In this document: piece after piece, positions 3,509 through 32,275 of the stretch
Layout: every line of letters starts with the position of its first letter
How positions within the stretch are numbered: position 1 is the first letter of the stretch
Assembly (NCBI GenBank): GCA_025350625.1
Contig: JANXXL010000101.1
Location: forward strand, 1 to 39,039
DNA length: 39,039 bases
Reading direction: 5' to 3'
From: Bryobacterales bacterium
Lineage (GTDB): Bacteria > Acidobacteriota > Terriglobia > Bryobacterales > Bryobacteraceae
Made by a program: the position numbers and the translations under genes
Notes under the pieces: model-generated
The model's input: the letters and a program-made list of their open reading frames with translations, nothing else
Database searches by the model: none
Told to the model about the DNA's origin: nothing

Positions 3509-3530
3509 TGCTAAACTCCTTCGTACAGAT

Positions 3531-3536
3531 ATTATA
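3531..3536 (-). promoter_or_regulatory. -10 box for the 3508-1048 gene group
   Basis: TATAAT on the minus strand, 23 bp before the ATG at 3508 and just upstream of its Shine-Dalgarno. No good -35 is present, which may point to an activator; the 11-bp palindrome at 3570-3598 lies a short way upstream. Confidence 0.4.
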
Positions 3537-3569
3537 TTGAGTGTTCGCGCGCGAGTCTTCACAGCTTGG

Positions 3570-7284: not shown

Positions 7285-7330
7285 GCTGCCCCCTGTTGCC
7301 AATTGGCATAGAAATGACGTGACCAAAGGG

Positions 7331-7359
7331 ACGTTATCACCGGATGATGCCAAAGTCAA
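7331..7359 (-). promoter_or_regulatory. sigma-70-like promoter of the TonB-dependent receptor gene
   Basis: On the minus strand TTGACT (7354-7359) is followed by a 17-bp spacer and TAACGT (7331-7336), ending 47 bp before the ATG. The -35 and the next bases (TTGACTTTGG) resemble those before the two DUF1592 cassettes. Confidence 0.5.
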
Positions 7360-7410
7360 GCGAGGGGGTGGCAGCAAGGGGGTGGCGGCGGGTGTAGGCT
7401 ACTTGGAAAT

Positions 7411-16447: not shown

Positions 16448-16476
16448 TTGACTTAGGAATCCCCCAACGATAGTCT
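16448..16476 (+). promoter_or_regulatory. promoter of plus-strand DUF1592 cassette
   Basis: TTGACT (16448-16453), 17-bp spacer, TAGTCT (16471-16476), then AGGGTCGAG. It ends 60 bp before the DUF1592 start. The minus-strand cassette has TTGACT, 17 bp and TAATTT followed by AGGCTCG at a similar distance, which strengthens both calls. Confidence 0.55.
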
Positions 16477-16536
16477 AGGGTCGAGTCGGCGGTCTGGGGC
16501 CGTCCAAGCAAAGAAGTGATGGGAGATCTTCCATTT

Positions 16537-18885
16537 ATGCAATGGCGTGCGGTGTCTTTCCGGGTAGCAATCTTATTGGCGGCGGGGAGCTTTCTTACAC
16601 TTGACGCGCAGCAGGCTCAACCGGCCGCCGTTATCAAGCAATACTGCCTGGCGTGCCACAACGATAAGTTGAAAACCGCAGGTCTGGCATTCGACACCGT
16701 AAATATAGATAACGCCGATCGGAATCCAGATGTATGGGAAAAGGTTGTGCGTAAGATCGGCGCTCGGGCGATGCCGCCGGCCGGCATGCCGCGACCTAGC
16801 GAAGCGACTTACAAAGCGTTTTTGTCGTACTTAGAGACTTCGCTCGATCAAAGTGCGTCGGCCAAGCCCAATCCGGGCCGTACCGACACGTTCCGCCGGT
16901 TGAATCGCACTGAATACCAAAATGCGATTCGCGATCTGCTCTCGCTCGACGTGGATGTCGCTTCCCTTCTCCCGACTGACGATTCGAGCCACGGTTTTGA
17001 CAACATCACGGTGGGCGATCTCTCGCCGACTCTTTTGGAACGCTACCTGGCGGCGGCGCAAAAGATCAGCCGTGTCGCGATCGGAAGCCCGATTCGCACT
17101 CCGGGCGGCGATACCATCTCTCTTCCTCCGGACCTCACGCAAGAGGAGCACTTCGACCAATTGCCTTTCGGCACGCGTGGCGGGACGTTGGTGAATTACA
17201 CCTTCCCTCTCGACGCGGAGTACACGATTCAGCTTCGCTTGACTCGGGATCGGAATGAGCATATCGAAGGTCTGACCGAAACCCATCAGGTGGAGCTGAC
17301 GCTGGATGGTGAGCGGATAAAAGTGTTCACGATTGTTCCGCCGGAGAATGGGCAGTACGCGGCCAGCCATGAAACGTTTGATAAGTTTCTGAATGTTCGG
17401 ATTCCAGTAAAGGCCGGCCCGCATGCGCTGGGCGCTTCGTTCCTCAAGAAGCCGTCGGCGCTGCTGACCACCGAGCGGCAGCCGTATCAGGCGCACTTTA
17501 ATATGGACCGGCATCCGCGTGTCCAGCCGGCGCTGTATTCAATTTCTGTGGTTGGTCCCTTTGAGGCGAAGGGGCCTGGGAACACGCCGACGCGCAGCCG
17601 GATTTTTGTGTGCCAGCCGGCGAATGCGTCCGAAGAAGACGCTTGCGCCGAGCGCATCTTGTCTACCTTATTGAAGCGGGCCTATCGGCGGCCGGTCACG
17701 GATAAGGACGTTCAGGTTCCACTCAAATTCTTCAAGGACGGGAAAGCCGGCGGAGTATTTGACGCCGGGATCGAGATGGCGCTGCAGGCGCTGCTGGTGA
17801 GTCCTGAGTTCTTGTTCAGGGTCGAGCGCGATCCGGCCAACGTAGCGCCCAATACCGCTTACAGGCTCACCGATGTCGAATTGGCCTCGCGGCTTTCGTT
17901 CTTCCTCTGGAGCAGCATTCCGGACGATGAACTGCTGGATCTGGCTATCGCCGGGAAGCTGAAAGAGCCTGCGGTGCTCGAAAAACAGGTGCGGCGCATG
18001 CTGGCCGATACTCGGTCTGAGGCATTGGTGAACAGCTTCGCCGATCAATGGTTGTACCTGCGAAATCTGGCGTCGATTACTCCCGACCCGAGAGTGTTTC
18101 CGGATTTCGACGACAACCTGAGGCAATCCTTGCGGCGTGAGACCGAGCTGTTTTTCGACTCGGTCATGCGCGAAGACCGCAGCGTGATGGATTTGTTGAA
18201 GGCGAATTATACTTTCGTCAATGAACGCCTGGCCAAGCACTACGGGATTCCGAATGTGTACGGCAGCCAGTTCCGTCGGATTTCATTTGGCGCGGATGAC
18301 GTGCGCGGCGGGCTGCTCAGTCAGGGAAGCATACTGACGGTAACGTCTTATCCCGACCGCACCTCGCCTGTGATTCGCGGAAAATGGATTCTCACGAATA
18401 TTCTGGGCACTCCACCTCCTCCGCCGCCGCCGAATGTGCCGCCGCTCAAAGACAACAACGCCGTCGGAGGCAAGGTGCTGACGATACGGGAGCGAATGGC
18501 GCAACACCGCGCGAATCCCCCCTGCTCCGGTTGTCACAAACTGATGGACCCGGTGGGATTCTCGCTCGAAAACTTTGACGCTGTGGGGCGCTGGCGGACC
18601 ATTGACAGTGGCGCGCCCATCGACTCCTCGGGAAGCCTTCCCGACGGCGGAAATTTCGCGGGCGAAGCCGGATTGAAGCAAGCGTTGTTGAGCCACCCGG
18701 AACTTTTTGTCACCACTACCACAGAAAAGCTTCTTACGTATGCGTTAGGCCGGGGCCTGGAATCTTACGACGGCCCGGTAGTGCGGAAGATCGTGCGGGA
18801 CGGCCACAACCAGGACTACCGCTTCTCGTCGCTAATTTTGGGAATTGTTAACAGCACACCATTTCAAATGAGGAGATCTCTATGA
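16537..18885 (+). CDS. DUF1592-family dihaem protein (DUF1587/1595/1592/1588/1585), cassette A
   Basis: A 782-residue exported protein. The ATG at 16537 is chosen because the signal peptide (WRAVSFRVAILLAAGSFLT) then begins at once and aligns with the paralogue; in-frame GTG 16516 and ATG 16519 are alternatives. The N-terminal cytochrome-like domain has CLACH at 37-41. FRRLNRTEYQNAIRDLL marks DUF1587. A beta-rich middle follows, then the DUF1595 and DUF1592 regions (RPVTDKDVQVPLKF; ELASRLSFFLWSSIPDDELL), a run of consecutive prolines, and DUF1588 with a second CxxCH (CSGCH, 663-667) in CSGCHKLMDPVGFSLENFD, ending in DUF1585. This gene pairs with DUF1552 in many Planctomycetes, Verrucomicrobia and Acidobacteria; its function is unknown. 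The haem motifs suggest periplasmic redox work. It overlaps the next gene by ATGA. Confidence 0.9.
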   Translation: MQWRAVSFRVAILLAAGSFLTLDAQQAQPAAVIKQYCLACHNDKLKTAGLAFDTVNIDNADRNPDVWEKVVRKIGARAMPPAGMPRPSEATYKAFLSYLETSLDQSASAKPNPGRTDTFRRLNRTEYQNAIRDLLSLDVDVASLLPTDDSSHGFDNITVGDLSPTLLERYLAAAQKISRVAIGSPIRTPGGDTISLPPDLTQEEHFDQLPFGTRGGTLVNYTFPLDAEYTIQLRLTRDRNEHIEGLTETHQVELTLDGERIKVFTIVPPENGQYAASHETFDKFLNVRIPVKAGPHALGASFLKKPSALLTTERQPYQAHFNMDRHPRVQPALYSISVVGPFEAKGPGNTPTRSRIFVCQPANASEEDACAERILSTLLKRAYRRPVTDKDVQVPLKFFKDGKAGGVFDAGIEMALQALLVSPEFLFRVERDPANVAPNTAYRLTDVELASRLSFFLWSSIPDDELLDLAIAGKLKEPAVLEKQVRRMLADTRSEALVNSFADQWLYLRNLASITPDPRVFPDFDDNLRQSLRRETELFFDSVMREDRSVMDLLKANYTFVNERLAKHYGIPNVYGSQFRRISFGADDVRGGLLSQGSILTVTSYPDRTSPVIRGKWILTNILGTPPPPPPPNVPPLKDNNAVGGKVLTIRERMAQHRANPPCSGCHKLMDPVGFSLENFDAVGRWRTIDSGAPIDSSGSLPDGGNFAGEAGLKQALLSHPELFVTTTTEKLLTYALGRGLESYDGPVVRKIVRDGHNQDYRFSSLILGIVNSTPFQMRRSL

Positions 18886-20219
18886 TCGTCACGAAAAAAG
18901 CACTGCCCCGGAGACAGTTTCTGCGAGGTGTGGGCGTTACTCTTGCGCTGCCCTTGCTCGATGCCATGATCCCGTCGTTTACGGCCATGGCTGCAACGCC
19001 TGCGAATCCGGTGCGGCGCCTTGGGTTCATCTATGTTCCCATGGGATCGAACTTCTCCCAGTTCCAGCCAAAGACGGTGGGGGCGCTCACCGAATTGTCG
19101 CCGACTTTGAGCTCACTGACGCCGTTCATCGACCAGTTGACCGTGCTCAGCAACATGGAACTTAAGAACTCCTATTCGCCTGGCAACCATGCCACTGCTA
19201 ATTCCGGGTATCTCAGTGCGGCCCGCGCCAAGATGACGGAAGGCAGCGATTATGAGCTGGGGATCACGGTCGATCAAATCGCCGCGAAGCACTTTGCGAA
19301 AGATACCAAGGTGCCCTCGCTCGAGCTCGCTATGGATTTGCTGACGCCCATCGGCAGCTGCGACAACGGCTTTGCGTGCGTCTACCAGAACAATCTTTCG
19401 TGGTCGACGCCCACTACGCCGCTGCCGTCTGAAGGAAACCCGCGCATTGTCTTCGAGCGCCTGTTCGGCGACGGGGGCAGCGCTGCGGACCAGCGTGCGG
19501 CGCTGAGACGAAGCGGCAGCATTCTCGATTGGGTGACCGACGATATGGCGCGCCTGCAGCGGGAGCTGGGGGCGGGCGATCGCAATAAGGTCAGCCAGTA
19601 TCTGGATACGGTTCGAGAACTGGAGCGCCGCATTCAAAAGGCTGAGGAAAAGACTGCGGAGTCGCCGCTGCCGGATCTGGAACGGCCGGTGGGTGTGCCC
19701 GCATCCTATGCGGAACATGCCAAGTTGATGTTCGATTTACAGGTGCTCGCGCTGCAAGGGGATGTAACCCGCGTGATCACGCATCAACTGGCGCGTGAGA
19801 CCAGCACTCGCACCTATCCTGAAATTGGAGTGTCTGAGGCGCATCATCCGACCTCGCATCACACTAATAATCCGGAGAAGCTCGCGAAGCTGGCGAAGAT
19901 CAACGCTTATCACGTTTCGCTGTTCGCCTACTTCCTGGAGAAGCTCAAGGCCACGCCGGACGGCGATGGCTCGCTGCTCGATCACACCATGTATCTCTAC
20001 GGCAGCGGCATGGGCGATCCGGATGTGCATGACCACGTCAACCTGCCGATCATTGTGGCCGGCGGCGGCGCGGGCAAGCATAAGGGCGGGCGTCATATCA
20101 AGTACGATCAGCCGACTCCGCTCGCGAACCTTCATTTGACGCTGCTGGAGAAGGTGGGTGTCCACCTCGACAGCTTCGCCGATAGCAAGGGACATGTCGA
20201 CGAATTGCTTTCTCTCTAG
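18882..20219 (+). CDS. DUF1552 family Tat-exported protein, cassette A
   Basis: A 445-residue protein. The N terminus has a twin-arginine signal (RRQFLRGVG at 10-18, then TLALPLLDAMIPS), so it is probably exported folded. The body matches DUF1552: RRLGFIYVPMGSNF, LSPTLSSLTPFIDQLTVLSN, SLELAMD, VYQNNLSWSTPTTPLPSE, LRRSGSILDWV, then GSGMGDPDVHDHVNLPIIVA and GGRHIKYDQPTPLANLHLTL near the end. The C-terminal part recalls DUF1501 and sulfatase-like folds; this is my impression, not a demonstrated relation. GAGGAG seven bases before the ATG is formed by the last codons (MRRSL) of the DUF1592 gene, and the ATGA overlap couples translation. Partner of the DUF1592 dihaem protein; reaction unknown. Confidence 0.9.
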   Translation: MIVTKKALPRRQFLRGVGVTLALPLLDAMIPSFTAMAATPANPVRRLGFIYVPMGSNFSQFQPKTVGALTELSPTLSSLTPFIDQLTVLSNMELKNSYSPGNHATANSGYLSAARAKMTEGSDYELGITVDQIAAKHFAKDTKVPSLELAMDLLTPIGSCDNGFACVYQNNLSWSTPTTPLPSEGNPRIVFERLFGDGGSAADQRAALRRSGSILDWVTDDMARLQRELGAGDRNKVSQYLDTVRELERRIQKAEEKTAESPLPDLERPVGVPASYAEHAKLMFDLQVLALQGDVTRVITHQLARETSTRTYPEIGVSEAHHPTSHHTNNPEKLAKLAKINAYHVSLFAYFLEKLKATPDGDGSLLDHTMYLYGSGMGDPDVHDHVNLPIIVAGGGAGKHKGGRHIKYDQPTPLANLHLTLLEKVGVHLDSFADSKGHVDELLSL

Positions 20220-20238
20220 ATTTCAGGAGACAAGAATC

Positions 20239-21723
20239 ATGCAACTGAAACGCTTCAGCGGGTGGTTGATCGTTCCATCGTTCCTGGCTGCGAGCCTGCT
20301 GGCTGCGGGTCCGAGCGCCCGGCTGGTGGATGCCGTCAAGAATACCGATAAAGCTTCCACGCGCGCATTGATCGGGCAGCATGTCGACGTGAATGTGCCC
20401 GAGACGGATGGCACCACCGCACTCCATTGGGCCGCGCGCTGGGATGATTTGGAGACGGCGGAGCTGTTGATTCGCAATGGCGCGAACGTAAAGGCTGCGA
20501 ATCGTTATGAGGTGACGCCGCTGTCGCTCGCCTGCGAGAATGGCAACGCCGCGATGATCGCGTTGCTGCTCAAGTCGGGCGCGGACCCGAACACCGCCCT
20601 GCCCGAAGGCGAAACGGCTTTGATGACGGCTTCGCGCACCGGCAAAGTGGATGCGGTGAAGCTGCTGATGGCTCGCGGAGCCGACCCGAATGCTAAGGAA
20701 AAGGGACACGGCCAGACTGCCCTGATGTGGGCAGCGGCCGAAGGGAACACCGCAGTGGTCGAAGAGCTGGTCGAGCGTGGCGCGGACATGCATGCGCGTT
20801 CCGAGGGATTTACGCCGCTGTTGTTTGCGGTGCGCGAGGGACGAACTGGTACTGTCCGGGCTATGTTGAAGCTCGGAGCGGATGTCAATGAAACCTGGCA
20901 GGGGCCGAGGCGGATGTCGGGTTCGGGCAGCAGCGCTTTGGTTTTGGCAGTGGCGAACGCTCACTATGAACTCGCCTTGGCGCTCTTGGATGCCGGTGCG
21001 GATCCGAATGCCGCGGCGCAGGGCTGGACCGCATTGCATCAGATTACCTGGGTGCATAAAGCGGGCACTGGAACCAACGATCCTGCTCCGGAAGGGTCTG
21101 GAAGTGTGGACGCTTTTGACTTCGTTCGGAAACTCGTCGCGCACGGAGCGAACGTGAACGCTCGCATGACTAAGTCTGCGAAGCTGGGTCCGACTGATCT
21201 GAATATGATCGGAGCCACTCCTTTCTTGATGGCTGCCCGCACTGCGGATGCGCCATTGATGCGTCTGCTTGCCGAGTTGGGAGCCGATCCTCTGTTGCCG
21301 AACGCCGACAATACCACGCCATTAGCAGTTGCGGCGGGCATTGGTACGCACTCGCCGGGCGAAGACGCCGGGACGGAGCCCGAAGTACTGGAGGCGGTAA
21401 AAGTCGCGTTGGAACTTGGCGGAGACGTCAATGCAGTCGACAATAAGGGCGAGACTGCGATGCACGGCGTGGCCTATAAGCAGGTTCCCACTGTCGCGCA
21501 ATTCCTGATCGACAAAGGCGCGAAGATCGAGGTCTGGAATCGCAAGGACAAAGAAGGGGTTTCGCCGCTACGGATCGCGGAAGGCGCATTTGTGTTATCG
21601 AAGCTCCGGGCACCGTCGCCAGGAGTTGCCGCCGTGTTACGCAAAGCGTTAGGCGATGCGGGTCTACCGACGGAAGTCGAACCCCAGGACCTGACAGTTT
21701 TGCGGGTCCGAGAGAAGCTATAG
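20239..21723 (+). CDS. exported ankyrin-repeat protein, cassette A
   Basis: A 494-residue protein starting at the ATG at 20239, with AGGAGA eight bases upstream; an in-frame extension back to 20158 would overlap DUF1552. Residues 1-24 form a signal peptide (FSGWLIVPSFLAASLLAAG). About ten ankyrin repeats follow, for example TALHWAARWDDLETAELLIR, TPLSLACENGNAAMIALLLK and TALMWAAAEGNTAVVEELVE. The array is broken by longer insertions, including LHQITWVHKAGTGTNDPAPE (near 280) and THSPGEDAGTEPEVLEAVKV, which recur in the paralogue at 23165-24706. Ankyrins bind protein partners; here the partner is presumably exported too, perhaps the DUF1592/DUF1552 pair. The 19-bp gap after DUF1552 indicates one operon. 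Confidence 0.9.
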   Translation: MQLKRFSGWLIVPSFLAASLLAAGPSARLVDAVKNTDKASTRALIGQHVDVNVPETDGTTALHWAARWDDLETAELLIRNGANVKAANRYEVTPLSLACENGNAAMIALLLKSGADPNTALPEGETALMTASRTGKVDAVKLLMARGADPNAKEKGHGQTALMWAAAEGNTAVVEELVERGADMHARSEGFTPLLFAVREGRTGTVRAMLKLGADVNETWQGPRRMSGSGSSALVLAVANAHYELALALLDAGADPNAAAQGWTALHQITWVHKAGTGTNDPAPEGSGSVDAFDFVRKLVAHGANVNARMTKSAKLGPTDLNMIGATPFLMAARTADAPLMRLLAELGADPLLPNADNTTPLAVAAGIGTHSPGEDAGTEPEVLEAVKVALELGGDVNAVDNKGETAMHGVAYKQVPTVAQFLIDKGAKIEVWNRKDKEGVSPLRIAEGAFVLSKLRAPSPGVAAVLRKALGDAGLPTEVEPQDLTVLRVREKL

Positions 21724-21745
21724 CATTGGTCTGACATTTCTTACT

Positions 21746-22477
21746 ATGCGCCGCATTCTGGTTGTGCTTTCTCTAGGACTTTGCTCCATCGCGGCGGCCC
21801 AGGAAAACCACAAACCCCGCAGGACCGTCTGGGACGGAGTTTATTCGACGGCTCAGGCAGACCGCGGGAAAATGGCTTACGGCGCAAAATGCGCGATGTG
21901 CCACCAAGCCGATCTCAGCGGTTACTATGGGGCGCTCAAGGGCGATCACTTCATGGAGCACTGGCGCGAAAGCGTCCTGAACGACTTATTTGCGAACATA
22001 AGCTCCACCATGCCGCGGGACGCTCCAGGAACGCTCAGCGAGGGAGTCTACCTGGATATCCTTTCTTACGTCCTGAGTGCGAATGCCTTTCCGCCGGGCG
22101 CGAGCGAATTGACCCGGGAAGCGCTGGGGAGCATTCAAGTGGAGGGCAAAGCAGGGCCGCAGGAAGTGCCGACCGGTGCGCTGGTCGACGTGCTGGGGTG
22201 CCTGGAAGAAAGCCCCGGCAAGGGCTGGATACTGACGCAAGCCACCGCTCCGATCCGCACCAGAAATCCGGGAGACCCGACTGCTGACGAGTTAAAGGCC
22301 GGAGCGGCCAAACCCCTCGGGACGCTTACGTTTGGGTTGATGGATGCGGCGGCGTATTCGCCCGAAGCTCACAAGGGCCAAAAGGCGCAGGCTAAGGGGT
22401 TGATGATCAGGCTCCCGGGGGGCGATCGTATCAACTTAACATCGCTTCGCATCACTGATGTGAAGTGCGGCTCCTGA
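21746..22477 (+). CDS. monohaem c-type cytochrome with unusual C-terminal domain
   Basis: A 243-residue protein with a signal peptide (RRILVVLSLGLCSIAAAQ). Residues about 25-115 form a class I cytochrome c domain with CAMCH at 49-53 and a likely distal Met 89 in STMP. The remaining ~120 residues (LVDVLGCLEESPGKGWILTQ, then GTLTFGLMDAAAY, GLMIRLPGGDRINLTSLRIT) form a second domain that I cannot name; it has paired Cys near its ends and may be beta-rich. The gene follows the ankyrin gene by 22 bp on the same strand and is probably the fourth gene of that operon. A natural idea is that it takes electrons from the dihaem DUF1592 protein, but this is inference. No matching copy accompanies the minus-strand cassette. 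Confidence 0.8.
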   Translation: MRRILVVLSLGLCSIAAAQENHKPRRTVWDGVYSTAQADRGKMAYGAKCAMCHQADLSGYYGALKGDHFMEHWRESVLNDLFANISSTMPRDAPGTLSEGVYLDILSYVLSANAFPPGASELTREALGSIQVEGKAGPQEVPTGALVDVLGCLEESPGKGWILTQATAPIRTRNPGDPTADELKAGAAKPLGTLTFGLMDAAAYSPEAHKGQKAQAKGLMIRLPGGDRINLTSLRITDVKCGS

Positions 22478-22522
22478 CGGAATCCGGCGGCTTATTGGGG
22501 GGACGGGTTAGGATGAAAGAAA

Positions 22523-23143
22523 ATGTCCGCTTTCGCCGCCCGGGTATTTCTGCTTTCTCCCGCTCGCTTGGATGGGCCGCGATCCGCGATGCTGCTCCGG
22601 CAGCCTGCAAACTTTGAATTAGCCGAGCGCTTGCACCGCGGGGAGGCAACCATTGGCGAAGTCTACAGCTTCATCAGCGGGCTCTACTTTCGCGGGAAAG
22701 TCGCTTATGCGGCGGCCTTCGCGGGGTCTCCCGAGGGCGCTGCTTCGAGCTTGATCATCGTACCGGGTGCCGGGCTGATCCCGCTTGAAACGACCGTCAG
22801 CGTGGAAAAAGTAAGGGAATTCGCAGGGATTTCTATTGAGCGCGACTACGACATCTATCGGGCGACCCTGCTGCGCGATGCCCGTTTGTTGGAGCAAGCG
22901 TCGGGTCCAGCCTGCCGTTTAATCCTGTTGGGTAGCATTGCCAGCGACAAATATACGGCGCCGCTGCTCGAAGTTTTCGGCGAGCGGCTGATGTTTCCGG
23001 CTGATTTTGTGGGGCGCGGCGATATGAGCCGGGGCGGCTTGATGCTCCGTTCCGCTCAGGCGGGCGTGGAACTTGAGTATAAACCGGTCGCGGGCGCTTT
23101 GCTGCGCGGGGCGCGGCCCCCGAAGTTAATTCCGATACGCTAA
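22523..23143 (+). CDS. conserved hypothetical protein
   Basis: A 206-residue soluble protein without a signal peptide or membrane segment. Segments that look conserved are RVFLLSPARLDGPRSAML, GEVYSFISGLYFRGKVAYA, IIVPGAGLIPLETTV, LILLGSIASDKYTAPLLEVF and FPADFVGRGDMSRGGLMLR. I recall similar uncharacterised proteins in Acidobacteria and some Proteobacteria but cannot assign a function. AGGATG lies upstream at workable spacing and the gap to the cytochrome gene is 45 bp. Unlike the neighbouring products it is probably cytoplasmic, so it may not belong to the exported system. Its stop is 21 bp from the convergent ankyrin gene; I see no clear terminator in that short gap. Confidence 0.7.
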   Translation: MSAFAARVFLLSPARLDGPRSAMLLRQPANFELAERLHRGEATIGEVYSFISGLYFRGKVAYAAAFAGSPEGAASSLIIVPGAGLIPLETTVSVEKVREFAGISIERDYDIYRATLLRDARLLEQASGPACRLILLGSIASDKYTAPLLEVFGERLMFPADFVGRGDMSRGGLMLRSAQAGVELEYKPVAGALLRGARPPKLIPIR

Positions 23144-23164
23144 GTCCGGCGCGCTAGCGGGACG

Positions 23165-24706
23165 TTATTGCGCGTTCGGACACAATTCCTGGGAGTGAGT
23201 GTCGCAGTTCTTAGACGTCTCGACGATGACGGTCGAGTGGCCGGCGGCGGTCATGAGTTTCTTCAGCACGGCTTCGGTCTCGGGGGATGGTTTGAAGTTC
23301 CCGAAGCGGTGACCCTGGGCGATCCACAATGGCGACCAGCCCATTTTGTTCTTCTGGTCCCAGATTTCGATTTTCGCGCCCTTGTCGGCCAGGAATTGTA
23401 CTGCGAGCGGCAGGTTCTTATAGGCAGCGCCATGCATGGCGGTCTCGCCCTTGTTGTCAACGGCATTAATGTCCGCGCCGAGATCCAAGGCCACTTGCAT
23501 GGCCTCGATCACTTCTTCCTCGGTGCCAGCGTCCTCGCCGGGAGAACGCGTCCCCAGGCCGGCGGCGGCCATGAGCGGCGTGCTGTTGTCTTCGTTGGTC
23601 ATCAGAGGATCGGCACCCAGTTTGGCCAAATAACGCATCAGTTCGGCGTCGGCGGTGCGGGCGGCAAGGAAGAAAGGCGTCGCGCCCTTGGTGTTCAGGA
23701 TGGTCAAACCCACTTTCTCGGGTTTGGTCATGCGGGCGTTAATATTGGCCCCGTGATCGACCAGCACCTTCACCATTTCAAGACTGGTCATGCTCCCCGA
23801 TCCTTCGGGCGAGGGGGAATTATCGCCTAAGCCGGACTTGCGGACCCAGGTGATCGCATGCAGCGGCGTATATCCGATTTCTGTAGCATTCGGGTTCGCG
23901 CCCGCTTCGAGGAGTTTGGTTGCCAGTTCGAAATGGCCGTTCAGCACCGCTAAATCGAGGGCGCTGGTGCCGGGGCGGGAAACTCCGGCGATACCACGGT
24001 TCGCATTGGCGACGCCATGAGACCGCTGGCGGAATTTAGGCTGTACGACCTCGTTAAAGTCCTCTCCGCCTTTCAGCAGGACCGGAAGAACGCCGATCTT
24101 ACCTTCTCGCGCTGCGTATAGAAGAGGCGAAAATCCGTAGCGGTCGCGGGTTTTGAAATCGGCGCCGGCCTTGAGAAGGGCCTCGACCGCCTGTGCGTTT
24201 CCTTCCGCTGCGGCCCACATCAGGGCGGTCTGCTCGGAATGCGCTTCCTTGGCGTTGATGTTGGCTCCATGAGAGAGGAGCGCTCCCACGGTTTCGACAT
24301 CGCCAGTGCGCGCGGCGGTCATCAGGACGGTCTCGCCGCCGAGCAGGACGGTGTTCGGATCGGCTCCGGCTTTAAGGAACATCTCGACCATAGGCCCGTT
24401 GCCATTCTCACAAGCCGACGATAGGGGAGTTACTCCATAGCGGTTGACGGCTTTCACGTTGGCGCCGGCGTGGATCAGCAACTCGGCCATTTGCAGATCG
24501 CCTTTATGCGCCGCCCAATGGAGCGCGGTCATCCCGTCGACCTGGGATGCATTGACGTCCGCGCCCTTTTGGAGGAGCGCCTGCAGGCCGGCTTTATCGC
24601 CGCCTTCGGCCATATCCGCTATGCCGGAAGCAAGGCCGGCGCCGAGCAGGCTAGCCGCCGATAACAACGAAATCAGAGCCCATTCACCGAACTGTATTGG
24701 ACGCAT
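23165..24706 (-). CDS. exported ankyrin-repeat protein, cassette B
   Basis: A 513-residue protein, paralogue of the ankyrin protein at 20239-21723 in the opposite orientation. It has a signal peptide (residues 1-24, ALISLLSAASLLGAG) and repeats such as TALHWAAHKGDLQMAELLIH, TPLSSACENGNGPMVEMFLK and TALMWAAAEGNAQAVEALLK. The same inter-repeat insertions occur (LHAITWVRKSGLGDNSPSPE; GTRSPGEDAGTEEEVIEAMQ). It differs by an insertion with FRQRSHGVANANRGIAG near 240 and by a C-terminal tail with two cysteines (SKNCDTHSQELCPNAQ) that could form a disulfide. AGGAGA begins at the upstream DUF1552 stop codon, eight bases before the ATG, so it is coupled to that gene. Confidence 0.9.
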   Translation of the reverse strand: MRPIQFGEWALISLLSAASLLGAGLASGIADMAEGGDKAGLQALLQKGADVNASQVDGMTALHWAAHKGDLQMAELLIHAGANVKAVNRYGVTPLSSACENGNGPMVEMFLKAGADPNTVLLGGETVLMTAARTGDVETVGALLSHGANINAKEAHSEQTALMWAAAEGNAQAVEALLKAGADFKTRDRYGFSPLLYAAREGKIGVLPVLLKGGEDFNEVVQPKFRQRSHGVANANRGIAGVSRPGTSALDLAVLNGHFELATKLLEAGANPNATEIGYTPLHAITWVRKSGLGDNSPSPEGSGSMTSLEMVKVLVDHGANINARMTKPEKVGLTILNTKGATPFFLAARTADAELMRYLAKLGADPLMTNEDNSTPLMAAAGLGTRSPGEDAGTEEEVIEAMQVALDLGADINAVDNKGETAMHGAAYKNLPLAVQFLADKGAKIEIWDQKNKMGWSPLWIAQGHRFGNFKPSPETEAVLKKLMTAAGHSTVIVETSKNCDTHSQELCPNAQ

Positions 24707-24718
24707 AGGGATGGTCTC

Positions 24719-26083
24719 CTAGAGGGCCAGCAGTTCCGCGACGCGGCCCTGGCTATCGCCGAAGCTGTCCTGGTGGATACCGACTTTATCCAGCAGCGTC
24801 AGGTGAAGGTTCGCGAGCGGGGTGGGTTTGTCGTACTTGATGTGGCGTCCGCCCTTCAGCTTGCCGGCTCCGCCGCCGACTAGAACGATCGGAAGGTCGG
24901 AGTGGCTGTGGATACTGGAATTCCCCATGCCGCTGCCGTAGAGATACATCGAATTATCGAGCAGGGAGCCGTTGCCGTCGGGGGTGGCTTTCAGCTTCTC
25001 GAGGAAATATCCAAACAGCGATATATGGAACGCATTGATCTTGGCGAGCTTCGCCAGTTTCTCGGCATCGCCGCCGTGGTGCGAGGTGGGGTGATGCGCT
25101 TCGGGCACGCCGATCTCGGGATAGGTGCGCTGGCTCGCTTCGCGGGCAAGCTGGAAGGTGATGACTCTGGTGACGTCTCCCTGGAGCGCCAGCACCTGTA
25201 AGTCGAACATCAATCTTGCGTGATCGCCGTAAGCAACGGGGACGCCTACTGGACGGTCCAGATCCGGCAGGTGGGATTCGGCGGTGTCGCTCTCGGCCTT
25301 TTGAATACGCCGCTCTACTTCACGAACGGTGTCGAGGTAATCGCCGACGATGATACGGTCGCTTGCGCCAAGTTTGCTCTGCAAGCGCGCCACATCTTCG
25401 TTCACCCAGTCGAGCAGACTGGCCCGGCGGCGCAAAGCCTTTAGCCGGGTGGCGGAATTGCCGCCTTCACCGAACAGGCGCTCAAAAACAATGCGCGGGT
25501 GTGCTTCGGAGGGCAGCGGCGTGGTCGGCGACGACCATGCGAGATTGTTCTGATAAACGCAGGCGTAGCCGTTGTCGCACTGGCCCACGGTGGTGAGCAG
25601 ATCCATCGCCAGTTCGAGCGAGGGCAGCGGCGTATCCTGGCCCATTCTCTTGGCGGCGATCTGATCGACGGTGGTCCCCAGATGGTAATCGGTGCTCTCG
25701 GTCCACTTCGCTTTCGCGGCGCTGAGGAACGAGGAATTGGAGGTCGCGTGAGTGCCCGGATAGGCGCTTTGCAGCTCCATATTGGTGAGCACGGTAACCT
25801 GATCCATTACCGGGGTGAGCGGCCGGAGGGTGGGCGATAGTTCGGTGAGTCGTTCCACGCCTCCTTTCACGGGTTCGCCGAAACTACCACCGCCCGGAGT
25901 CCACGCCGCAAGATTGGAGCCCATGGGAATATACACGAAACCTAACCGGCGCACCGGATTGGCAGCAGTCGCCGCCCACGCGGTATTCGCCGGGATCATG
26001 GCATCGAGTAACGGGAGCGCCATGGTGACGCCCACGCCTTGCAGGAACGTCCGTCTCGGTAACGCCTTCTTGGTATTGATCAT
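24719..26083 (-). CDS. DUF1552 family Tat-exported protein, cassette B
   Basis: A 454-residue paralogue of 18882-20219. It has a twin-arginine signal (RRTFLQGVGVTMALPLLDAM) and the same core blocks: RRLGFVYIPMGSNL, LSPTLRPLTPVMDQVTVLTN, SLELAMDLLTTVGQCDNGYA, LRRRASLLDWVNEDV, HHPTSHHGGDAEKLAKLAKI and GGRHIKYDKPTPLANLHLTL. An additional short loop (TPGGGSFGEPVKGGVERLTE) near residue 65 accounts for most of the greater length. The ATG overlaps the DUF1592 stop (ATGA), and GAGGAG lies in the last codons of that gene, exactly as in cassette A. Export as a folded protein is inferred from the Tat motif; the reaction is unknown. Confidence 0.9.
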   Translation of the reverse strand: MINTKKALPRRTFLQGVGVTMALPLLDAMIPANTAWAATAANPVRRLGFVYIPMGSNLAAWTPGGGSFGEPVKGGVERLTELSPTLRPLTPVMDQVTVLTNMELQSAYPGTHATSNSSFLSAAKAKWTESTDYHLGTTVDQIAAKRMGQDTPLPSLELAMDLLTTVGQCDNGYACVYQNNLAWSSPTTPLPSEAHPRIVFERLFGEGGNSATRLKALRRRASLLDWVNEDVARLQSKLGASDRIIVGDYLDTVREVERRIQKAESDTAESHLPDLDRPVGVPVAYGDHARLMFDLQVLALQGDVTRVITFQLAREASQRTYPEIGVPEAHHPTSHHGGDAEKLAKLAKINAFHISLFGYFLEKLKATPDGNGSLLDNSMYLYGSGMGNSSIHSHSDLPIVLVGGGAGKLKGGRHIKYDKPTPLANLHLTLLDKVGIHQDSFGDSQGRVAELLAL

Positions 26084-28416
26084 AGTGTTCTCCTCATTTG
26101 AAACGGGGTACTGTTGACGATTCCCAAAACGACGGACGAGAACCGGAAATCCTTGGCTTGAGCATCCGCGACGATCTGGCGGACTGCCGGAGCATCATAA
26201 TACTCGACGCCACGGCCCAAGGCGTAGGTGAGTAGTTTTTCGGTGAAAGTGGAAACAAACAGTTCCGGATGGCTCGCGAGAGCTTTTTGGAGTCCGTCCA
26301 CGCCCTGGAAGGTGCTGCCGTCAGGAAGGCCGCCGGTGGAATCGATCGGCTTGGCTTCCTCTATGGTCCGCCAGCGGCCGACGGCATCGTAGTTTTCAAG
26401 CGAGAAGCCTACCGGGTCCATCAGGCGATGACAGCCGGCGCAGGGCATGTTGGCGCGGTGAAGCGCGAGCCGTTCCCGAACCGACAGAGCCTTGGTCGAT
26501 CCACCGTTGTCCTTTAATGGCGGGACTGCGGGAGGAGGAGGCGGTGGGGGCACGCCCAGAATGTTTTCGAGCACCCACTTGCCGCGAATCACCGGCGATG
26601 TCCGGGTGGCATAGGAGGTGACGATAAGGATGCTTCCCTGGCGGAGCAACCCTCCGCGTCCTTCATACTCGATGCGCCGGAAGCGGCTTCCGTAGACGTT
26701 GGGAATGCCATAATGCTTGGCCAGGCGCTCATTGACATAGGTATAGTTCGCGCTCAAGAGTTCCGGCACGGGGCGGTCTTCGCGGATGATATTGTCGAAG
26801 AATAATTCGGTTTCCTGGCGGAACGCCTGCCGCAGATTATCGTCGAAATCCGGGAATAAGCGCATGTCGGGAGTGGTGGAGGACAGGTTGCGCAGGTACA
26901 GCCATTGTTCAGCGAAATTATTCACCAGGGAGCGCGAGCGGGCGTCTGCCAGCATGCGGCGCACTTGCTGTTCGAGGCCCGCGGGAGTCCTGAGTTTTCC
27001 GGTGGTGGCGGAATTCAGAAGCTCGTCATCCGGGATGCTGCTCCATAAGAAGAATGACAGGCGCGACGCGAGTTCCAGATCGCTGATGCGATAGGCGGTG
27101 TTCGGCGCTGTGTTCGGAGGGTCATTTTCGACGCGGAACAGGAATTCCGGACTTACCAGCACGGAAGAAAGAGCCGATTCGATCCCCGCTTCAAAGCCAC
27201 TTTCCTGCCGGGTCTCGCGGTAGAACTTCAAAAGAGCCTTTAAGTCCGCATCCGTGACGGGGCGGCGGTAAGCGCGGCGCGTCATCATGGTGAGGATCTT
27301 GCTCGCGCAAGCTTCTTCTTCGGCGGGCTTCGTCGGCTGGCACACAAAAATCCGGCGGCGGCTGGCGGTGTCCCCTGGGCTTTGCGCTCCATACGGGCCG
27401 TTGATGGTCAAGGTGTAGAGCGCGGGCTGAACTCTAGGGTGCCGGTCCATGTTGAAGTGGGCCTGGTAGGGCTGACGCTCGGTGGGTTGCAGCGTCCAGG
27501 GCTTTTTCACGAAAGCGACGGTCACAACGTGCGCGCCGGCTTTCACCGGCATGCGGACGTTGAGGTCCAGGTCGACGGCATGCTCATCTTCGCCTTCGGC
27601 GGGCTTTACTGTGAAGGATTTCACTAACTCCCTGTCCATCAGGAGTTGTAGTTCGGCGGGCTCATCCAGACCTGAAACGTGCTCTCTGCTGTCGCGCACC
27701 AGACGCATCTGGATTTCATATTCGGCGTCTACAGGGAAGGTGTAACTAACTGTGGTCCCGCCACGCAGGCCGATGGGGATATCGTCGGAACCGTGTTCCT
27801 GGGTAAGATCCGGGGGCAGCATGATGGTATCGCCACCGGGAGAAGGAATGGTTCCTCCCACTGCCAGGCGGCTGATCTTCTCGGCTGCCGACAGGTAGCG
27901 TTCGAGCAGGGTTGGCGAGAGATTGACTACGGTTACATTATCGAAGCCGTGACTGGATTCATCGGCGGGCAGGAGCGGCGTGATATCGACTTCGACTCCC
28001 AGGAGATCGCGGATGGCGTTCTGGTATTCCGTCCGGGTCAACCGGCGGACCGCACCGGTGCGGCCAGGGTTGGGCTTGGCCGCGGCGGCGCTGTCGAGTT
28101 CTTTCACCAGTGACGCGACAACTGCCTTGTAGGTCCGGTCATCGGGACGGGGCAAACCGGGGGGCGGCATGTACTGGCCGCGGAGTTTCCGGACGACTTT
28201 CTCCCACTCTTGCGGGTGCTGGCTTACGCTTTCCGAGTTAATCGCGTCGAGCGCCAAGCCACCCACTTTCAACTTACTATTGTGACAAGTGAGGCAGTAT
28301 TGGTTGACGACCGCGGTGTAAACGTTAGGTGCCGGCGGCTGGGCGCTGGCAAGCAAGCCACCTGCCGTCAGCAAGAATGTAAACCGCACGGAAATCGATC
28401 TCACCGAACTCCTCAA
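26080..28416 (-). CDS. DUF1592-family dihaem protein, cassette B
   Basis: A 778-residue paralogue of the protein at 16537-18885, with the same domain order. It has a signal peptide (VRFTFLLTAGGLLASAQ), CLTCH at 41-45, VRRLTRTEYQNAIRDLLG (DUF1587), RPVTDADLKALLKFYRETRQ, ELASRLSFFLWSSIPDDELL (DUF1592), a seven-proline run, and CAGCHRLMDPVGFSLENYD (DUF1588, second CxxCH), ending MRRTL. The start is uncertain: TTG at 28414-28416 has GGAGG six bases upstream, while GTG codons a few residues later also have a purine-rich stretch. A good promoter lies 72 bp upstream. The sensor kinase and response regulator genes precede it on the same strand, making it a candidate target. Confidence 0.9.
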   Translation of the reverse strand: MRSSVRSISVRFTFLLTAGGLLASAQPPAPNVYTAVVNQYCLTCHNSKLKVGGLALDAINSESVSQHPQEWEKVVRKLRGQYMPPPGLPRPDDRTYKAVVASLVKELDSAAAAKPNPGRTGAVRRLTRTEYQNAIRDLLGVEVDITPLLPADESSHGFDNVTVVNLSPTLLERYLSAAEKISRLAVGGTIPSPGGDTIMLPPDLTQEHGSDDIPIGLRGGTTVSYTFPVDAEYEIQMRLVRDSREHVSGLDEPAELQLLMDRELVKSFTVKPAEGEDEHAVDLDLNVRMPVKAGAHVVTVAFVKKPWTLQPTERQPYQAHFNMDRHPRVQPALYTLTINGPYGAQSPGDTASRRRIFVCQPTKPAEEEACASKILTMMTRRAYRRPVTDADLKALLKFYRETRQESGFEAGIESALSSVLVSPEFLFRVENDPPNTAPNTAYRISDLELASRLSFFLWSSIPDDELLNSATTGKLRTPAGLEQQVRRMLADARSRSLVNNFAEQWLYLRNLSSTTPDMRLFPDFDDNLRQAFRQETELFFDNIIREDRPVPELLSANYTYVNERLAKHYGIPNVYGSRFRRIEYEGRGGLLRQGSILIVTSYATRTSPVIRGKWVLENILGVPPPPPPPAVPPLKDNGGSTKALSVRERLALHRANMPCAGCHRLMDPVGFSLENYDAVGRWRTIEEAKPIDSTGGLPDGSTFQGVDGLQKALASHPELFVSTFTEKLLTYALGRGVEYYDAPAVRQIVADAQAKDFRFSSVVLGIVNSTPFQMRRTL

Positions 28417-28487
28417 AACCTACCTCCCGCCATACTCCATTTGACGTTCTGCACTTGGGCCGGACGGCTTGGGGGCTATCCGAGCCT

Positions 28488-28516
28488 AAATTAGCCCAGA
28501 AGTCACTCAAAGTCAA
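28488..28516 (-). promoter_or_regulatory. promoter of minus-strand DUF1592 cassette
   Basis: Minus strand: TTGACT (28511-28516), 17-bp spacer, TAATTT (28488-28493), followed by AGGCTCGGA. It lies in the 164-bp gap between the response regulator gene and the cassette. The pattern TA-T-TAGG-TCG after the spacer is shared with the promoter at 16448-16476. Confidence 0.6.
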
Positions 28517-28580: not shown

Positions 28581-29219
28581 TTAACGCTCGATGTGGATAA
28601 TGCCGCGGCGGATCGCGAGGGTGACGGCGTGGGTGCGGTCGGACGCTCCCAATTTGGACAAGATATTCTGCAGGTGCATCTTTACGGTTCCGGCGGCGGT
28701 GCCCAAGCGGACTCCGATCTCTTTATTCCCGAATCCTTTGGCGACGTATTGCAGCACTTCAATCTCGCGGGCCGTGAGCGCGACTTGCGGAAAATGCTCA
28801 CTCAGGCGTTCGGCTACCTCAGGCGACATGAGGCGCTTGCCGGAGTGAACCACGCGGATTGCGCGGACAATTTCGGTGTGGACCGATTCCTTAAGAATGT
28901 ATCCGCGAACCCCGGCTTCGAGGGCGCGATAGATTTCCTGGTCTCCGTCATAGCTGGTGAGCGCGATGATCTTGGCCTCAGGATCGATCTGGCGAATTTG
29001 TTTGGTGGCCTCGATGCCATCCATAACCGGCATCCGCAAATCCATGAGGGTGATGTCGGGGTGAAACTGGCGAAATGCAGTCACCGCTTCGGCGCCGCTG
29101 CCGGCTTCGGCCACCAGTTTCATGTCGGTTTCGATAGACAGAATGGCTGCAATCCCTTTGCGTACCAGCGGGTGGTCATCCACACAAAGAATTCCAAGCG
29201 TTTGCGTTGTTGCGCCCAT
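28581..29219 (-). CDS. NarL/FixJ family response regulator
   Basis: A 212-residue two-domain regulator. The receiver domain (about 8-125) has the acidic pair D14/D15, phosphoacceptor D60 in TLMDLRMPVMDG, T88 in ALTSY and K110 in YILKES, so all phosphorylation residues are present. The C-terminal LuxR-type helix-turn-helix (LTAREIEVLQYVAKGFGNKE, then TVKMHLQNILSKLGASDR) binds DNA. Its ATG overlaps the stop of the sensor kinase gene by one base, so the two form a cognate pair. Downstream on the same strand, after 164 bp with a promoter, is the DUF1592 cassette, which it may control. The actual targets are not shown by sequence. Confidence 0.93.
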   Translation of the reverse strand: MGATTQTLGILCVDDHPLVRKGIAAILSIETDMKLVAEAGSGAEAVTAFRQFHPDITLMDLRMPVMDGIEATKQIRQIDPEAKIIALTSYDGDQEIYRALEAGVRGYILKESVHTEIVRAIRVVHSGKRLMSPEVAERLSEHFPQVALTAREIEVLQYVAKGFGNKEIGVRLGTAAGTVKMHLQNILSKLGASDRTHAVTLAIRRGIIHIER

Positions 29220-32197
29220 TAGATCGGTTCCAATCTTCCGTGAGGAGATGACAGCGGGGTGGTGGCAGTAATCGGCACCTGCACGGAAACTTTAGTTCCC
29301 TGGCCGGGCGCGCTGGCTACGTCCAGCTTCCCGCCGATCTGGCTGGCGCGCTCTTTCATTCCTATTATCCCGTAATGCCCTGCCCTGCCCTTGCCTTCGG
29401 CTAAACTGATGCCCCGGCCATCGTCGCGGACCGCTATCCGCAAGTCATTCGCCGAGCACACTAAGGTTACCTCAATGAGGTGGGCTCCGGAGTGCTTGAT
29501 CGAATTCGTGATGGCTTCCTGGACGATACACACCAGGTTGTATTTCATTTCAGCGGGAAGCTCCTGGTGCCGGTCATCCAGATTCAATTTCAAGCGGATG
29601 TCGCGTTCTTCGGTGAGCTGACGGGCCGCGTCCGCAATGGCGGCGGCCAGCCCCGAGCTGGAGCCGGTTCCACCCCGCAGGCCGGCCACAGAACGGCGCG
29701 TTTCCTGTAGGCAGATGCCCGCATCGTGAATGATCTCGCCCAGCGCCTGGCGGTCTTCGGAGGTTTTGAGACGGCTGGCGAAGGCATGCATCTGCATGGT
29801 AATTCCGGAAAATCCCTGAATTAATGTGTCGTGCAACTCGCGGGCGATACGGCTTCGTTCCGCCAGAACCAGAACAAACTGGCTCCGTAAATGCTGCACG
29901 CGGAAGCGGTAGAACATCCACACCAGCAGCGCGGCCAGGAGCAGACAGGACGGGAGGAACCACATACGCTGGTAAAATACCGGCGCGATTTCAAAATCCA
30001 AAGAGCTGCCGGTTTCGTTGCAATTGACGAAGGCGCCACAGGCGACTACGCGAAAGCGGAATTTTCCCGGCGGCAGGTTGGTGTACGCGGCTTCGCGGCG
30101 GGGGCCGGCGTTGGTCCAATCTTTGTCGTAGCCTTGCAAAATGTAACGGAACGTGACGCGGTTGGGCGCCAGATAGGTGAGTGCGGTGTATTGGAAATCG
30201 ACATTGGTGCGGCCGGGACCGAGGGTCTTGACACCAGCGGGGTCCAGATCTTTACCGTTGATGGTTACATCCTCGATTACGACCGGCGGAACCGAGCCGG
30301 GGCGAACCCCCTGATTGGGCTCGAACGCAAGCAGCAGGCCGGTGGCCGAGAACCATAACGTACCGTCGGTTCTGCGAACGCCTACGGGCTGGACTCCGGG
30401 TGTTCCCTGGATGGTCCGCAAGCCATCGAGCGGACGGTAGGGTATGCTTACGAACTTTGAGATTTTGCCGTCGGCAAATTTCAGCAGCTCTTTGCGATCC
30501 ACCCAAAAAAATCCTTTCGCGCATGCCATCCACAGACGGTCTTGCGCGTCCGACACAAATCCATAAATTTCGCCGTCGTACAAGCCGTCGCGGATCAGGA
30601 AGCGGGTAAGCTTTCCGTTGCGCAACATTCCCAAGCCATTTCCCTCTGCGCCTAACCATACGATCCCCTCGTGATCTGTGTAGATTGCGTTTATTTCCTC
30701 GAGAGGCGGCGAAATATTGGGAGGCCCCGTCAGCTTTTGCAGGCCGTTATCGTCAGACAGATAAACGTTTCCACGCGCGGCCGCGAAGAGCATGGAACCC
30801 TCGCGAGTTTCGCCGATGGCGGCGATCGGGCCGGTCAATTCTTTTTCCGAAAAGTGCACCGGAACGAAGCGTCCGCCTTCCAAGACGGCAGGACCTTTTT
30901 CCGTACCTGCCCATAAGCGCCCCGAGTGATCGCGGAACAAAGAACGGATTCGACTCGACGGCAACCCTTGGGCAGTAGTGTAAATCTCCTGAACCCGGCC
31001 TTCTTTAAGATGGAAAGCGCCCAGGCTGGTCCCGGCCCACAGGTCGCCTCCGGTATCGTCGATCAGGGTCGTGACTTGTCCTTTGGGAAAACCGGCTAGA
31101 GGAGTAAAAAATCTCCCATTGAACCGGCTTAGCCCGCCGTCGAGCGAACCAGCCCACAGCGTTCCGCGGCGGTCCTGAAAAATAGGGCCCATGTTATCGC
31201 TGGGGAGACCTTCGCTCTTGTCGTAGCGAGTTGCTGCGCCATCGACGAACTGGTTGAGACCGTTTTTGGTGGCCACCCACAGAGATCCCTCACGATCTTC
31301 GAAAACTCCGTAGACCGTGTTCTGCGAGAGCCCTTCACGGTAGCCGTAACTCTCAAAAGTGCCGTGGCGCATGCGGCTAAATCCGTTTCGCGTGCCGGCC
31401 CAGATGGCGCCGTCGGACCCCTGTCCCAGGGAGAGGATTACGTCGTCGGCCAAGCCATCGCGGGCGGTGTAGAGCTTCTCGACGCCGGCATTGTAGTGGA
31501 CCAAACCTTTTTCGGTTCCGACCCAAATTCCATCAGCGCCGCAGAGCACCGACCGCATATCCAGATTGCCGCTCACGGATTTGAGGGTAACTCGCGAAAA
31601 CTGCCAACCATCCCAGTAGGCGAGCGACTCGCCGCCCGCAATCCAGATCTTCCCGTCATTCGCGCGGCAGCCGCTGAGGGGGCGGTTGAGGATTTGTTCG
31701 GGGGACTGGTGGGTATCGAACTTATCACCCTGGATGTGGACTAAACCGGTAGCGGTGCAGGCCCACATGTCGTCGCCGGACCCTCGCACTACGCAGGAAA
31801 CCTTGCTGTACAAGCCATCGTCTTCGCCGAAAACCTTGACGTCGGCGCCGGTTATGCGGACCAGTTGCGAGTCATTGGTGGCCATCCACATTCTTCCCGC
31901 AGCGTCTTCCGCCAAACCGCGCACCCACACTTCGCCCAGGGAATTCGCCTCCAGGGCACGGATGGGATTGAACTCTATGCCGTTGAAGCGCGTGAGGCCG
32001 CTCTGCGTTCCGACCCATATATATCCATCGTGGGTCTGAGTAACCACGTAAATCGACGCTTGGGACAAACCGCCCTGGGTCTGCCAGATGCGATGCACAT
32101 ACTGGGTTAGTTTGTGGTTAGGGTCGAGGGCGTGCGCTACTCCTCCGCTGGCGAGCGCGAGCGAAACCGCGGCACAAAAACGTAGCGCTTTAGACAT
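29219..32197 (-). CDS. two-component sensor histidine kinase with periplasmic propeller (reg_prop, Y_Y_Y, HisKA_3)
   Basis: A 992-residue kinase from the ATG at 32195-32197, chosen because the signal sequence (ALRFCAAVSLALASGGVAHA) starts there; a TTG seven codons upstream is possible. Residues about 30-660 hold many two-component-regulator propeller repeats (DGYIWVGTQSGLTRFNG, GTLWAGSLDGGLSRFNG and similar). A Y_Y_Y domain follows (VTFRYILQGYDKDW, about 670-735), then one membrane segment (746-763). HisKA_3 has the phosphoacceptor H789 in RIARELHDTLIQGF. The ATPase domain shows VQEAITNSIKHSG, RDDGRGIS and GIIGMKERA. This architecture senses external ligands, polysaccharide breakdown products in the better-known Bacteroides relatives. 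The ligand here is unknown. It is co-transcribed with the regulator. Confidence 0.93.
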   Translation of the reverse strand: MSKALRFCAAVSLALASGGVAHALDPNHKLTQYVHRIWQTQGGLSQASIYVVTQTHDGYIWVGTQSGLTRFNGIEFNPIRALEANSLGEVWVRGLAEDAAGRMWMATNDSQLVRITGADVKVFGEDDGLYSKVSCVVRGSGDDMWACTATGLVHIQGDKFDTHQSPEQILNRPLSGCRANDGKIWIAGGESLAYWDGWQFSRVTLKSVSGNLDMRSVLCGADGIWVGTEKGLVHYNAGVEKLYTARDGLADDVILSLGQGSDGAIWAGTRNGFSRMRHGTFESYGYREGLSQNTVYGVFEDREGSLWVATKNGLNQFVDGAATRYDKSEGLPSDNMGPIFQDRRGTLWAGSLDGGLSRFNGRFFTPLAGFPKGQVTTLIDDTGGDLWAGTSLGAFHLKEGRVQEIYTTAQGLPSSRIRSLFRDHSGRLWAGTEKGPAVLEGGRFVPVHFSEKELTGPIAAIGETREGSMLFAAARGNVYLSDDNGLQKLTGPPNISPPLEEINAIYTDHEGIVWLGAEGNGLGMLRNGKLTRFLIRDGLYDGEIYGFVSDAQDRLWMACAKGFFWVDRKELLKFADGKISKFVSIPYRPLDGLRTIQGTPGVQPVGVRRTDGTLWFSATGLLLAFEPNQGVRPGSVPPVVIEDVTINGKDLDPAGVKTLGPGRTNVDFQYTALTYLAPNRVTFRYILQGYDKDWTNAGPRREAAYTNLPPGKFRFRVVACGAFVNCNETGSSLDFEIAPVFYQRMWFLPSCLLLAALLVWMFYRFRVQHLRSQFVLVLAERSRIARELHDTLIQGFSGITMQMHAFASRLKTSEDRQALGEIIHDAGICLQETRRSVAGLRGGTGSSSGLAAAIADAARQLTEERDIRLKLNLDDRHQELPAEMKYNLVCIVQEAITNSIKHSGAHLIEVTLVCSANDLRIAVRDDGRGISLAEGKGRAGHYGIIGMKERASQIGGKLDVASAPGQGTKVSVQVPITATTPLSSPHGRLEPI

Positions 32198-32275
32198 GCG
32201 ATTGACTACGTGGTCCAAGGGCCTTCCTGGCTCATATTGTCGCGCAGACGGGCCCGGATTGGAAACGACACCACG

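Follow-up and report, generated by a model that had tools for sequence, protein, structure and literature searches.

Two convergent DUF1592–DUF1552–ankyrin cassettes of a Bryobacterales bacterium are distant members of a conserved three-gene set

In this study, we analyzed a stretch of 39,039 nucleotides from a Bryobacterales bacterium of the phylum Acidobacteriota (assembly GCA_025350625.1, contig JANXXL010000101.1, positions 1 to 39,039; hereafter the window), which carries two cassettes, each encoding a DUF1592-type cytochrome, a DUF1552 protein and an ankyrin-repeat protein. The cassettes are convergent, with cassette 1 at 16537–21723 on the plus strand and cassette 2 at 28416–23165 on the minus strand. 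We found that they are distantly related members with separate ancestry, which were likely brought together at this site rather than copied from each other, and that their products, which are predicted to be exported, may form a redox complex for an oxidation beyond the cell membrane.

The first-pass annotation of this region had read the two cassettes as an inverted duplication of one cassette, a reading against which it said that a closer kinship of each copy to other loci would speak; this is the pattern that we observed. First, in the genome of the window (5.1 Mb in 417 contigs, 89% complete), which encodes 8 DUF1552, 11 DUF1592 and 11 ankyrin genes of this type (E<=1e-46; two of the ankyrins are cut by contig ends), the closest relative of cassette 2 was a cassette on contig C124 (84, 80 and 75% identity for the DUF1592, DUF1552 and ankyrin proteins, respectively), whereas identities between cassettes 2 and 1 were 65, 72 and 56%. 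The first two genes of cassette 1 were closest to an ankyrin-less pair on C56 (75 and 79%) and its ankyrin to a solitary ankyrin on C64 (72%). Second, the three proteins of 71 full cassettes were concatenated (1685 columns) for a tree built by a quick search under LG+G4 without a mixture model; truncated cassettes, as well as L137 and L157, which repeat survey loci, were omitted. In this tree, cassette 1 paired with L105, a cassette from another acidobacterial bin (support of 99 in the Shimodaira–Hasegawa-like approximate likelihood ratio test), whereas cassette 2 grouped with L014 and L120 (support of 100), which are a cassette on another contig of the same genome and one from Candidatus Sulfopaludibacter. 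Forcing the two cassettes into one clade cost 552 log-likelihood units and was rejected by the approximately unbiased test (p = 3.9e-59). Finally, the two other loci in the tree with two full cassettes each (L116 and L154) likewise held copies on distant branches. Thus, although the three genes, their order, the overlap and the insertions are alike and the cassettes face each other, as would be expected of a local inverted duplication retained for dosage or function, such an event appears extremely improbable. No second cassette was seen within the fetched flanks of the nearest relatives (L105, L106, L120 and L014), which therefore gave no sign of the convergent layout. In one acidobacterial bin (L116:3292-16358), two distant cassettes are convergent around a cytochrome gene, much as in the window.

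The organization of the cassettes themselves agreed with the earlier description, and both were confirmed at these positions with the domains assigned to them. The features are as follows.

16537..18885, plus strand: cassette 1 gene 1, DUF1592-type protein (PSD3, PSD4, PSD5, PSCyt3, PSD2) with two CxxCH motifs and a hydrophobic N-terminus (Pfam; AlphaFold2 model, predicted local distance difference test score 88.9)
16645..16659, plus strand: cassette 1 gene 1, first haem motif CLACH (C37, C40 and H41)
17089..17571, plus strand: cassette 1 gene 1, predicted jelly-roll module, residues 185–345 (closest structures CBM35, CBM36 and CBM6)
18523..18537, plus strand: cassette 1 gene 1, second haem motif CSGCH, in the DUF1588 part
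18882..18885, plus strand: cassette 1, ATGA overlap of genes 1 and 2
18882..20219, plus strand: cassette 1 gene 2, DUF1552 (HXXSHH) protein with an N-terminal twin-arginine motif (Pfam, alignment)
18909..18914, plus strand: cassette 1 gene 2, twin arginine R10 R11 (alignment of 138 DUF1552 proteins)
19845..19862, plus strand: cassette 1 gene 2, HPTSHH motif, residues H322–H327 (sequence, alignment)
20239..21723, plus strand: cassette 1 gene 3, ankyrin-repeat protein with a hydrophobic N-terminus (Pfam)
21043..21102, plus strand: cassette 1 gene 3, ITWV...EGSG insertion of about 20 residues within an ankyrin repeat
21746..22477, plus strand: between the cassettes, monohaem c-type cytochrome gene (Pfam cbb3-type cytochrome match)
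22523..23143, plus strand: between the cassettes, gene for a protein without a Pfam family
23165..24706, minus strand: cassette 2 gene 3, ankyrin-repeat protein that shares the insertion of its cassette 1 counterpart (Pfam)
24719..26083, minus strand: cassette 2 gene 2, DUF1552 protein (Pfam)
26080..28416, minus strand: cassette 2 gene 1, DUF1592-type protein with two CxxCH motifs (Pfam)

Both DUF1592 proteins matched PSD3, PSD5, PSD4, PSCyt3 and PSD2 in order and above the curated cut-offs, and also gave a cbb3-type cytochrome match; HXXSHH (DUF1552) was matched by both second genes and ankyrin repeats by both third genes. The ATGA overlap, the AGGAG core within the last DUF1592 codons, the MRRSL/MRRTL ends, the proline run, both CxxCH motifs and the ITWV...EGSGS insertion, all described in the first-pass annotation, were found in both copies. 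The clear protein divergence that it had noted is borne out by the pairwise identities given above, and at the DNA level the cassettes shared two long alignments of 3947 and 447 columns (69 and 70% identity, respectively).

To place these cassettes in a wider context, named genomes were scanned with an ankyrin alignment, which yielded at least 572 encoding stretches; the best 80 were kept, a sample that favors close relatives. Among these, 6 start too close to the start of their contig, leaving 74 testable loci. In 73 of the 74, the ankyrin directly follows a co-oriented DUF1552 gene; in the remaining one (L166) the two genes are divergently adjacent, and an additional ankyrin in L184 has no DUF1552 directly upstream. 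The record titles span six phyla (Acidobacteriota, Verrucomicrobiota, Planctomycetota, Pseudomonadota, Gemmatimonadota and Actinomycetota), and most of the records are bins, whose phylum labels may err, whereas Paludisphaera soli and Tautonia sociabilis are named strains. All 71 full cassettes have exactly two CxxCH motifs in gene 1. The ATGA overlap of genes 1 and 2 was present in 49 of them, each time accompanied by a Shine-Dalgarno core within the 3' end of gene 1, while PPPP in gene 1 and GSG in the ankyrin insertion were found in 59 and 49, respectively. Moreover, the distance matrices of the three proteins correlated at 0.886, 0.924 and 0.892, compared with at most 0.322 in 2000 shuffles, and part of this correlation is shared species history. 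The three-gene set is real, conserved and under-described. A two-gene form also occurs: in L036:7544-11448 (G000:C383), DUF1592 is followed by an ankyrin gene without an intervening DUF1552, and the pair shows the same four-base overlap of stop and start codons as the full cassette. In L013:6651-9112 (G000:C143), the cassette's DUF1592 gene lies in two overlapping frames, reflecting an assembly error or a frameshift.

Viewed from the DUF1552 side, the association was much looser. In a survey of 12 other genomes of the class, in which 61 DUF1552 matches correspond to 62 reading frames (one match being split), only 17 frames had an ankyrin within 4.5 kb (one of which belongs to its neighbor), downstream on the same strand in 13, and it was absent near 45, two of them at a contig end. 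The genome of the window itself has an ankyrin near 7 of its 8 DUF1552 genes, downstream on the same strand in 6 of these. When 66 DUF1552 proteins of the window's own genome and the survey genomes were placed on a tree, presence of the ankyrin required 7 changes, compared with a mean of 19.8 after shuffling (none of 500 shuffles was as low). The 24 DUF1552 proteins with an ankyrin all fell within one part of 39 rows, shared with 15 ankyrin-less ones, and of the 42 without an ankyrin, the other 27 occupied branches devoid of it. From the ankyrin side, 24 ankyrin rows at E<=1e-20 merged into 20 genes, of which 16 adjoined DUF1552, 3 did not and 1 (G117:C125) lay at a contig end. Class-wide, DUF1552 occurred in 56 of 151 genomes, often in many copies, and the ankyrin (E<=1e-60) in 33, all of them among these 56 (the kinship of the genomes is uncorrected); among the matches listed, at least 44 of 97 ankyrin rows had a DUF1552 within 4.5 kb. 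The proposal of a conserved module with the ankyrin as a regular third member is thus supported for ankyrin-centered loci, where adjacency to DUF1552 is anything but rare and the proteins diverge together, but has to be limited for DUF1552 genes, most of which lacked this partner in the survey.

The product of gene 1 is predicted to be a c-type cytochrome with a carbohydrate-binding-like jelly roll. C37, C40 and H41 of the first haem motif were invariant in 64 aligned DUF1592 proteins; in the structural model, the fold comparison centered on residues 185–345. Single-sequence and profile searches of the PDB with DUF1592 and DUF1552 returned no useful relative, the only match bearing on an X183-type haem domain was a cytochrome c555 entry, and NCBIfam had no family for either protein of cassette 1. 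One described counterpart is Cbp2D of Cellvibrio japonicus (DUF1587, X183, X132 and a carbohydrate-binding module, CBM), with which gene 1 shares DUF1587, two CxxCH domains and, by prediction, a CBM, and whose X183 haem domain reduces lytic polysaccharide monooxygenases as electron donor; however, the parts of that report consulted (PMC8981238) mention neither a DUF1552 nor an ankyrin partner, and the CBM-like part of gene 1, unlike that of Cbp2D, is predicted to be an internal jelly roll resembling CBM35/36. For a lignocellulose-degrading community, a DUF1592 protein of Cellvibrio that carries CBM2 has also been listed (PMC6004670). According to PMC5615132, on Planctomycete-specific cytochromes, PSCyt3 genes usually neighbor a family of unknown genes of unknown function and some PSCyt genes encode CBMs; that system has the same PSCyt3 and PSD domains as gene 1 and a conserved unknown neighbor, but an ankyrin appears nowhere in the main text, whereas here the pair belongs to a three-gene cassette. 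The domains are also listed in PMC7789669 and PMC2754498; for Rhodopirellula baltica, the latter mentions PSD1/PSC2 genes as well as one DUF1552 protein that is secreted.

Judging from its sequence, gene 2 is predicted to encode an exported protein of the twin-arginine translocation (Tat) type. Both copies matched the DUF1552 profile (PF07586, HXXSHH) strongly (316 and 304 bits; cut-off 30). Across 138 aligned DUF1552 proteins, R10 and R11 were each conserved in 137, and in the HxxSHH motif H322 was present in 136 and H326 in all. Protein database searches, which scored about 8000 candidates at most, gave a listing of the 120 best; the DUF1552 relatives in it shared at least 75% identity, and the names were uninformative. 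A fold of the alkaline phosphatase superfamily is predicted, as in sulfatases, nucleotide pyrophosphatases/phosphodiesterases (NPP) and alkaline phosphatases. With this shared fold, DUF1552 could be an active hydrolase of sulfate or phosphate esters, the DUF1592 cytochrome either helping it to mature or carrying out an accompanying redox step on the polymer that it attacks, but two observations make this unlikely. First, in profile alignments via DUF1501 (probabilities of 29, 0.4 and 88%, two of the three being low), the sulfatase Asp-Asn pair aligned to Gly-Met and the Cys nucleophile to His103. Second, Pro53-Met/Asn54-Gly55, with Gly in all 138 proteins, follows the first strand where neighboring sulfatases have Asp-Asp, a correspondence made by eye without an alignment. 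The nucleophile and part of the metal-binding residues typical of the superfamily thus appear to have been replaced, and DUF1552 further differs from that superfamily in its twin-arginine signal and cytochrome partner. A parallel pair is PSCyt1-PSCyt2-PSD1 (DUF1549/DUF1553) with DUF1501, which combines a cytochrome-type protein with a protein that has a weak profile match to DUF1552, although its Pfam families are other than those of the cassette.

The ankyrin protein is also predicted to be exported. The N-terminus was hydrophobic in 70 of the 71 full cassettes by a loose threshold, which 10–19% of internal stretches pass as well. Its NCBIfam matches were mostly Legionella effector models, far below their cut-offs, and were taken as generic ankyrin likeness. 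In PMC7567364, ankyrins are cited as required for catalase activity, such as AnkB of Pseudomonas aeruginosa (with KatB) and Cj1386 of Campylobacter jejuni (with KatA), in which an ankyrin protein is needed by a haem enzyme. By analogy, the cassette ankyrin, which likewise accompanies two haem motifs, might be a peroxide-protection or haem-delivery factor rather than a scaffold. We regard this as somewhat unlikely, given that 45 of the 62 surveyed DUF1552 frames lack such an ankyrin nearby. For AnkB and Cj1386 the partner is a catalase, and the comparison with them is drawn through the ankyrin repeats.

Taken together, the analysis shows the shared gene order, two CxxCH motifs, a twin-arginine motif, three proteins that diverge in a correlated way and separate ancestry of the two copies. 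We tentatively favor a reading in which the two cassettes are distant members of a widespread family and in which their products, predicted to be exported, assemble into a periplasmic or cell-surface redox complex, although the function of the set is a reasoned guess. Here, gene 1 would hold a substrate and gene 2 would act on it through a cluster of invariant histidines, plausibly a site for a redox metal acquired ahead of Tat export; the electrons would then flow to the haems of gene 1 and from there to soluble cytochromes, for example that encoded at 21746. The ankyrin, if exported as predicted, might dock the two partners, or help to load haem or metal, as reported for some catalases. If so, several diverged cassettes per genome would fit different substrates. 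A bolder version, which we consider distinctly improbable, is that the set represents an entirely new kind of exported oxidoreductase, in which an alkaline-phosphatase fold remodeled to bind a metal through histidines is electronically linked to a carbohydrate-binding cytochrome with two haems, a dedicated ankyrin keeping them together; distributed across several phyla, it would have multiplied within genomes into oxidation modules specific to different substrates.

The view that the ankyrin partner is under-described was supported by literature searches, which covered few subscription journals: the three-gene set was nowhere described, and no paper was found that joins ankyrin with DUF1552, DUF1592, PSCyt3, PF07586 or HXXSHH, ankyrin with 'Planctomycete-specific' and cytochrome, DUF1592 with DUF1552, or ankyrin repeat with Acidobacteria, cytochrome c and Tat signal. 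DUF1552-type genes have been described in Planctomycetota and Verrucomicrobiota as well, their work there being unknown (PMC5615132, PMC2754498). With a recurrent ankyrin partner, a fold prediction for DUF1552 and a set of invariant residues, what was an anonymous gene pair can be tested as a complex of three proteins. If the cassette were to oxidize polysaccharides or other organic material extracellularly, this would constitute a widespread and uncounted route of carbon turnover.

Other neighboring genes were also considered as members of the cassette. The cytochrome at 21746 was rejected, having a relative in only 6 other fetched loci, and so were the gene at 22523, the amidohydrolase before cassette 1 and a two-component pair upstream of cassette 2, for which the other fetched loci contained no relatives at E<=1e-15. 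This pair (28581-32218, minus strand) comprises a response regulator of LuxR type and a Reg_prop/Y_Y_Y sensor kinase. Encoded on the strand of cassette 2 and separated from it by about 160 bases on its upstream side, the pair might control that cassette. Across 94 cassette-bearing loci (including the window and with unequal flanks), the most frequent other neighbor families were TonB-type outer-membrane proteins (17 loci), a family without a Pfam match (15), DUF1501 (6), sulfatases (6) and DUF1549/DUF1553 cytochromes (5). These neighbors hint weakly at uptake and breakdown of outside material. In the window, the two largest clusters are represented on the minus strand by a protein without a Pfam or NCBIfam match (2666-3562) and by a TonB-type outer-membrane protein with a carboxypeptidase-regulatory-like domain (3628-7377).
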